This document shows positions 18,794 through 29,931 of a stretch of DNA of 32,204 nucleotides, one piece after another (position 1 is the stretch's first letter; every line of letters starts with the position of its first letter). The stretch spans positions 1 through 32,204 of the forward strand of contig JACRBB010000008.1 in the NCBI GenBank assembly GCA_016234585.1, in the 5' to 3' direction. Both the position numbers and the translations under genes were made by a program. The notes below the pieces were generated by a model that saw only the letters and a program-made list of their open reading frames with translations, made no database searches and had not been told where the DNA came from. This DNA is from Candidatus Saccharimonadota bacterium (GTDB taxonomy: Bacteria > Patescibacteriota > Saccharimonadia > Saccharimonadales > UBA10212).

Positions 18794-19633
18794 ATGAATG
18801 GAATTTTGCTGGTTGATAAGCCGGCCGGCTGGACGTCGCACGACGTTGTAGCCAAAGTCCGGGGTATCCTGCATAGACAGGCTAGCAATAGCGATCTTTC
18901 ATCTTCGCATCTGGATGTAGTACAAGGAAGTAGCGAGGAATGGAAAGAGTCGTACAAAGAGGTACGGCGACTGAGTACCGGAGTTACTGACGCCGTAATG
19001 CGTCAGAAGTCTGCCGGTGTGGCCCTGCCTAGGCGGGGACAGCAGGGCAAGACGATGCGAAAGGTGAAAGTGGGGCACACGGGGACATTAGACCCCTTTG
19101 CTACAGGCTTATTGATATTAGTTGTTGGTAGCTACACCAAACGCGCGGCTGAGTTTAGCAAACTAGATAAAACTTATGAAGCGGAAGTAGTTTTGGGAAG
19201 TGTGAGCACGACAGGTGATCCAGAGGGGGAAATTACGAAAAAAAGCGATAAAAAACCTTCTGAAGAGGAAGTTATGGCTGTTTTGGAGCAGTTTAAGGGC
19301 AAATACATGCAAATGCCTCCAAGCTACAGCGCCAAGAAGATAAACGGTCAAAGGGCCTATAAACTGGCCAGGGAAGGTAAAGAAGTAAAACTGGAGCCCG
19401 TTGAAGTAGAAATATACGATATAACAGATGTAGTTTATGACTTTCCCCGCCTGAGTTTCACCGTTTCTGTCAGCAGCGGCACCTATATCCGTACTTTAGC
19501 CGAAGATATCGGCGAAAAACTCGGCACAGGGGCCTACCTATCAGCTCTCCGCCGCACAAAAATAGGTAAATTTGATATAAGTAGCTCGGTAGATGTGAGC
19601 CATGCCTTGGACGCTTACTTGATAAAAGTATAG
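18794..19633 (+). CDS. truB: tRNA pseudouridine(55) synthase with internal insertion
   Basis: NGILLVDKPAGWTSHDVVAKVRG, KVGHTGTLDPFATGLLILVVG, PPSYSAKKINGQRAYKLAREG, SGTYIRTLAEDIGEKLG. Confidence 0.95.
   Translation: MNGILLVDKPAGWTSHDVVAKVRGILHRQASNSDLSSSHLDVVQGSSEEWKESYKEVRRLSTGVTDAVMRQKSAGVALPRRGQQGKTMRKVKVGHTGTLDPFATGLLILVVGSYTKRAAEFSKLDKTYEAEVVLGSVSTTGDPEGEITKKSDKKPSEEEVMAVLEQFKGKYMQMPPSYSAKKINGQRAYKLAREGKEVKLEPVEVEIYDITDVVYDFPRLSFTVSVSSGTYIRTLAEDIGEKLGTGAYLSALRRTKIGKFDISSSVDVSHALDAYLIKV
18914..19064 (+). repeat. Interspersed palindromic repeat, copy 1 (inside truB)
   Basis: GATGTAGTACAAGG...TCGTACAAAGAGGTACGGCGACTGAG...TGACGCCGTAAT...AGCAGGGCAAGACGATGCGAAAGG aligns with copies at 28718 and 29788. 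Confidence 0.75.
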
Positions 19634-28693: not shown

Positions 28694-29284
28694 ATGGCTA
28701 CAAGAGCCACGCAGGCAGATGCAGTACAAGGCGCGGACGAGGAGCGCAGCGAAGCCGTACAGAAAGGTACGGTGAGCGAGAACCACAGTTCGCAACGCAG
28801 TAATGTGTCTGCAAGCACTACCAGAGTCAGCAGCTCTGCTGATGAGCAGGGTAATGCGGTGCGAGGGTCGGTGAACCAATATGAAATAGCTGTGCTATAT
28901 CACCCAGATCTAGAAATAGATATGGAAAAAGCCAGTAAAAAAGTAGAAAAAATTATTACCGATAACGGTGGTAAAATTACCAAAACAGATAATTGGGGCA
29001 AGCGTAAGCTAGCCTATACCATCAAGAAACTCGACCATGCCGTGTACGTTTTTTACACGGTGGATATGCCAGGTGAAAACGTTGGCAAGGTAGAGCAAAT
29101 CTTTAATATTACAGATGAGATTATTCGTTTTCTGATAACCCGTCCCGATCTTAAGGCTATGGCCAAAGCCGAGGCGTTAAAAGCCGAAAAGGCTAAAAAA
29201 GCCGCCGAGCGCGGTGATCGAGATGACGCTGACAGGGAAGAAGACAGCGAAAACTCCAACAAACCGAGTAGAATAGAGGAATAA
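28694..29284 (+). CDS. rpsF: Ribosomal protein S6 with N-terminal extension of about 60 aa
   Basis: S6 core NQYEIAVLYHPDLEIDMEKASKKVEKIITDNGGKITKTDNWGKRKLAYTIKK. The ATG at 28694 has an AAGGAG SD. Confidence 0.92.
   Translation: MATRATQADAVQGADEERSEAVQKGTVSENHSSQRSNVSASTTRVSSSADEQGNAVRGSVNQYEIAVLYHPDLEIDMEKASKKVEKIITDNGGKITKTDNWGKRKLAYTIKKLDHAVYVFYTVDMPGENVGKVEQIFNITDEIIRFLITRPDLKAMAKAEALKAEKAKKAAERGDRDDADREEDSENSNKPSRIEE
28718..28871 (+). repeat. Interspersed palindromic repeat, copy 2 (inside rpsF)
   Basis: GATGCAGTACAAGG...CCGTAC-AGAAAG-GTACGGTGAGCGAG...ACGCAGTAAT...AGCAGGGTAATGCGGTGCGAGGG. Confidence 0.75.
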
Positions 29285-29787: not shown

Positions 29788-29892
29788 CGAGCTTTGATTA
29801 TGGCGAATTGCTGCGTCAGAACTTCCGCTCTTCACTCACTGTATCCTAAAATACAGCTCGCTCCAGTGCTCGGTTCTTCCTTGCACTTCACT
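29788..29892 (-). repeat. Interspersed palindromic repeat, copy 3 (ssb-rpsR intergenic, inverted)
   Basis: Reverse complement GTGCAAGGAAGAACCGAGCACTGGAGCGAGCTGTAT-TTTAGG-ATACAGTGAGTGAAGAGCGGAAGTTCTGACGCAGCAATTCG aligns with copies 1 and 2. Confidence 0.7.
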
Positions 29893-29931
29893 CATACTAA
29901 AAGCTCTTAACTCAAAGGAAAGGAATTATTT

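Follow-up and report, generated by a model that had tools for sequence, protein, structure and literature searches.

The insert in the truB gene of this window (the whole 32,204-nt stretch of DNA analyzed) is very probably one copy of a family of miniature inverted-repeat transposable elements (MITEs) that is specific to Patescibacteria and also fits inside proteins. The best reading of this family is a new, phylum-wide MITE that resembles the Rickettsia palindromic elements (RPEs) and carries a conserved RNA fold. Its mobility was seen in related genomes as terminal inverted repeats (TIRs), 5-bp target duplications (TSDs) and empty sites, and its insertion in frame was seen here.

Patescibacteria are tiny, host-dependent bacteria with reduced genomes. 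To our knowledge, in-frame selfish palindromes are known mainly from Rickettsiales. The elements described here represent an independent in-frame family across this phylum of reduced genomes, with TIRs, 5-bp TSDs, empty sites and an RNA fold that is deeply conserved. Two questions thereby become testable: the way in which these elements move, and the reason for the persistence of the fold within coding regions. The covariance model would also annotate unexplained insertions in TruB, S6, UvrD, RarA, EngA, PrmC, TsaD and other proteins.

The truB insert and the other copies in the window

TruB is a tRNA-modifying enzyme encoded by an essential gene. In an alignment with Thermotoga TruB (PDB 1ZE2), residues 3-26 of the latter matched residues 1-25 of the protein encoded here, and residues 25-210 matched residues 86-271. 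This left about 60 extra residues and bore out the in-frame insert that an earlier note on this DNA had proposed. The note had placed the insert at 18914-19064. An insert is present there, but the element runs further on both sides (Table 1). Its right edge is uncertain, because the outer part of the P1 3' strand consists of codons that are native to TruB (KVK).

Table 1. Positions of the elements and their host genes in the window
Feature	Position	Strand	Basis or remark
truB ORF, 279 aa	18794-19633	+	Insert between KVRGIL and KVGHTGTLDP; Pfam TruB_N at residues 88-232; PDB 1ZE2 alignment
Copy A, full element (P1, arm 2, arm 3, P1')	about 18896-19070	+	R2 match, E=2e-24; read in frame through truB
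Copy A, P1 5' strand, CTTTCATCTTCGCATC	18896-18911	+	Fold
Copy A, arm 2, conserved irregular hairpin	18912-19006	+	R1 match, E=8e-25
Copy A, arm 3, second hairpin	19007-19053	+	Fold
Copy A, P1 3' strand, GATGCGAAAGGTGAAAG	19054-19070	+	Fold
rpsF ORF, N-terminal extension derived from the element	28694-29284	+	S6 start motif compared with relatives
Copy B, 5' end of rpsF, in frame	28700-28873	+	R2 match, E=1.5e-26
Copy C, ssb-rpsR spacer, without arm 3	about 29790-29906 (arm 2 at 29800-29894)	-	R1 match, E=3e-24; fold z=-3.7 on the minus strand

Two further copies had been claimed in the window, and the similarity of the three was real: they aligned with scores of 92, 66 and 45, and shuffled sequences reached at most 52, 42 and 39, respectively. 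The copy in rpsF, which the note had aligned over 28718-28871, extends somewhat beyond these bounds. The reverse-complement copy in the ssb-rpsR spacer was recovered on the minus strand as an element that lacks arm 3.

The site in rpsF was likewise filled in four other genomes (G006, G008, G012 and G015). The copy was missing in G004 and G013, which belong to the same genus, and the S6 proteins of several relatives begin directly at NQYEIAVLYHPD without the element.

In truB, the element was absent from all the relatives' proteins that could be read, a comparison that the note had proposed.

The same site in the truB genes of relatives from other genera (L081, L090, L092, L094, L095, L098 and L099) holds different, simpler palindromes. 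These consist of AGCTYAA or AGTC-type units, or of a short stretch of the right flank repeated in inverted form (CGCGCACC-AAA-GGTGCGCG). The site may be a spot permissive for insertion, or these palindromes may be footprints.

Architecture and fold of the family

The family consists of dispersed palindromes of about 125-180 bp, the truB copy being about 175 letters long. Each has an outer stem (P1), an irregular hairpin of about 95 nt (arm 2) and usually a second hairpin of about 47 nt (arm 3, missing in some copies), which together form a three-way junction. The 'central hairpin' with a 6-nt loop described earlier does exist, but the flanking sequence showed that it is merely the tip of the 95-nt hairpin, itself one arm of the larger structure. 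The RNA of the truB copy folded at -72.4 kcal/mol (z=-5.8).

A fourth, weak copy, found by BLAST with the truB insert, lay between genes (G000:C25:13932-14025). A covariance model of these four copies (R1) contained 27 pairs, 14 of which showed double changes, and a full-length covariance model (R2) was also used. In 82 distinct copies of arm 2, 93% of the cells were paired, compared with 20-43% when the register was slid, and 25 of the 27 pairs showed double changes. The covariation that the note had called for was thus present. The full-length consensus (42 full-length copies) had 58 pairs, of which 50 showed double changes, and the pair counts of P1 taken alone are biased in this consensus because the P1 register was picked for complementarity.

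The purine-rich internal loops were conserved across classes. P1, on the other hand, was hypervariable in sequence from copy to copy, yet its pairing was kept. The best-preserved P1 of Saccharibacteria, GACTTACGCA/TGCGTAGGTC in L044 and L050, resembled the TIR of the family. The idea that P1 is merely target sequence was dropped on comparison with the empty site in EngA, where the insert is seen to include the two arms of P1. At sites other than EngA, P1 does extend into the native flank.

G-U cells far outnumbered A-C cells (200 versus 36 overall, and 110 versus 14 in arm 2 alone), an excess that is somewhat inflated by the fitting of the alignments to an RNA model. This pointed to the sense strand, and it argued against covariation of a purely mutational origin. 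In such a scheme, template switching during replication (quasipalindrome correction) would keep long inverted repeats matched, as the hypervariable and still paired P1 might suggest. The left arm is also the complement of the native right flank at several sites (L046, L042 and the truB right flank). Template switching would, however, remove the unpaired internal loops that are conserved, and G-T and A-C would arise equally often. Neither was seen, and we consider this origin of the covariation improbable.

Four copies fused to rpsF in different genera were 86% identical and occupied the same site in the same frame, and a common ancestry is likely. Sixteen of their 30 variable pairs showed compensatory changes, and substitutions were spread over the three codon positions without bias (17/24/25). 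This argued for a constraint on the pairing and not on the peptide. Conservation at the protein level alone, which the note had set against its own reading, was thus not what the rpsF copies showed.

Distribution and insertion inside genes

The note had regarded the truB copy as the founder of a three-copy family. No mark of founder status was found, and the R1 search gave 7 copies in this genome alone, with E values from 8e-25 to 4e-10. Further copies, the first check proposed in the note, were also found in relatives: of 41 genomes (this one and 40 relatives), 32 contained the element, with a maximum of 28 per genome. R2 matches were found in several classes, in 44 of the 380 genomes of a phylum sample in which only about 7 candidates were scored per genome.

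A scan of about 85,000 named species with an arm-2 pattern of 50 bits gave 102 stretches. Among the 80 of these that were listed, the matches were in Saccharibacteria and other Patescibacteria, in unnamed bins and in one Omnitrophota bin. No family in Rfam 15 matched the window or the elements. The element was not found in 2.9 million viral contigs, and phages and plasmids gave no real match, nothing beyond chance. A literature search that reached only a minority of subscription journals found no such element described in Patescibacteria.

Two copies lay in rRNA operons, just before the 23S gene and between 23S and 5S (L028 and L035), as judged from the adjacent rRNA-like sequence. A HAD-family gene of this genome carries an N-terminal remnant of the element (L167, G000:C6:9987-10061), and a full element occupies the same place in G029 (L023).

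All 19 sense copies that interrupt a gene, counted as those whose two flanks match one gene, kept the frame and contained no stop. The hosts were truB, uvrD, rarA, engA, prmC, tsaD, glmS, murF and a peptidase M1 gene. Pfam and PDB alignments showed 49 extra residues in RarA (between Walker A and Walker B), 53 in UvrD, 59 in EngA, 52 in GlmS and 50 in PrmC. By the same alignments, a murF-type ligase, tsaD, a gltX-type synthetase, peptidase M1 and S6 also have copies within them or at their start. In LepA, S1 and KhpB, copies lay close to the N-terminus.

Because all the sense interruptions were in frame and free of stops, the in-gene copies are most likely translated. An intron-like or translationally bypassed element, which would be removed or skipped and leave the protein unaffected, might be suggested by a structured insert in the middle of a catalytic domain, as in rarA and uvrD. 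An insert that is excised or skipped would not need an open frame in every one of the 19 cases. We rejected this idea, which is hardly credible.

When the 154 copies were compared with ORFs of at least 150 aa that span them, 22 ORFs were in the sense and 3 in the antisense orientation. One of the 3 antisense ORFs was a real gene, the only antisense case in frame (L033:1441-1611), in which the element splits an MGMT-like DNA-binding domain and the frame stays open.

This orientation bias, together with the compensatory changes and even codon positions in rpsF, the G-U excess that marks the sense strand, and the internal loops conserved across classes, would also fit a functional structured RNA. 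Such an RNA (a regulator, a processing signal or an RNA-protein site) would be kept at each site for its function, transposition being only its means of delivery. Against this, the copies occupy different places in different genomes and share neither a gene class nor an operon, the rpsF copy is missing from two genomes of the same genus, and there is no Rfam relative. We regard this reading as rather unlikely.

A further possibility, less likely than not, is that the element is both mobile and selected as an RNA. Its three-way-junction module with conserved internal loops would have been transposed into housekeeping mRNAs across Patescibacteria, and compensatory changes would preserve the fold at each place, even where the gene is translated. 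This would imply an RNA-binding function, either cellular or encoded by the element.

Mobility and comparison with known elements

Evidence for mobility of the MITE family came from other Patescibacteria lineages, whose genomes show recent activity of the element. G316 contained near-identical copies of 174-175 bp with the ends TAGGACTTACGC...GCGTAAGTCCTA. Five of its 8 copies were flanked by perfect 5-bp TSDs (AATTT, AAATT, TATAA, ATAAA and CTTTG), and two more matched at 4 of 5 positions. Elements with the same ends in G307 had the perfect 5-bp TSDs AATAT, TATGA, AGATT, AATTG, CATTT, TATTA and GTAAA, and G138 had TTATT.

Empty sites were found at orthologous positions. The EngA site in G004 and G012 reads GATAT|GCCCAG, and G015 has the whole element there, including both P1 arms. 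The MurF site was likewise empty in G004 and G012 and filled in G015. The TruB and S6 proteins of relatives without the element represent further empty sites. The elements are shorter than 500 bp and contain no transposase gene. With TIRs, 5-bp TSDs in young copies and empty orthologous sites, they conform to the definition of a MITE.

Some observations run counter to the MITE reading. In the old copies of Saccharibacteria, TSDs were not above shuffles (2 versus 1.0). A search around the TIR pairs found no autonomous element with matching ends, in assemblies that are fragmented at these repeats. In G316, G307, G227 and G074 there was nothing between the pairs but short elements, or ends that lacked a partner and lay beside ordinary genes. 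None of 15 genomes contained an IS630-type DDE_3. The variable sequence of P1 is also unusual for a TIR recognized by a transposase.

Like the REP/BIME palindromes with their RAYT transposases, the element is dispersed in bacterial chromosomes, and it might be a REP-like palindrome that a Y1 (RAYT-type) transposase moves via single-stranded DNA. Of 34 genomes, 14 had Y1_Tnp genes, and copies in G001, a congener of this genome, lay 0.6-2.5 kb from three RAYT-like Y1 genes (C36:12290-13217, C51 and C40). The Y1 genes were patchy and did not track the copy number of the element, and none was detected in G015 (19 copies) or in G316 with its fresh copies, leaving no consistent Y1 partner. The element is also much longer than REP/BIME and has TIRs. 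The TSDs of the young copies weigh further against this route, as a 5-bp target duplication is not expected of Y1 transposition. Movement by Y1 is very unlikely.

For the preferred MITE reading, we infer the transposase, the route by which the Saccharibacteria copies move, and any function of the fold. The old Saccharibacteria copies, in which no TSD was detected, have the fold and the ends in common with the young ones, and their mobility is deduced from this. The transposase would be of the DDE type and act in trans, recognizing the P1/TIR ends and moving the element as DNA. Where an insertion breaks a gene it would be purged, and the surviving in-gene copies would be those in surface loops with an open sense frame (xLDxVQGxxEQRxE...), translated as a loop of about 50-60 residues. 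The sense-strand fold might be selected additionally, either because mobility requires the fold or because transcripts are tolerated better when they are folded.

Correia/NEMIS, ERIC and YPAL are small, non-autonomous MITEs bounded by TIRs, with highly base-paired transcripts and some ORFs fused in frame (PMC2229807). The Patescibacteria element differs from them in its ends and its 5-bp TSD, and no sequence relation was found in plasmids or phages.

The palindromic elements of Rickettsia and Wolbachia are palindromes of about 100-150 bp with TIRs; they sit in frame within conserved genes and, in some cases, in regions of RNA genes (PMC2229807, PMC10969869, PMC3767692). A guanylate kinase bearing an RPE is translated and active (PMC2229807). 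The likeness to RPEs that the note had drawn holds in the sense that the Patescibacteria element works like them, being also palindromic, bounded by TIRs and in frame inside conserved genes. It differs in that its fold is a three-way junction with two arms and conserved internal loops, and in its demonstrated 5-bp TSDs, target duplications of RPEs being listed as unknown (PMC2229807, Table 1). By the arm-2 pattern, no Rickettsia, the source of RPE 1-10, was among the listed loci of the species scan.

The TIR variants in G307 ranged from 70 to 214 bp. At three loci (L190, L202 and L206), short elements of 70-124 bp had the TIRs but lacked the conserved arm 2. The TIR ends alone may suffice for movement.
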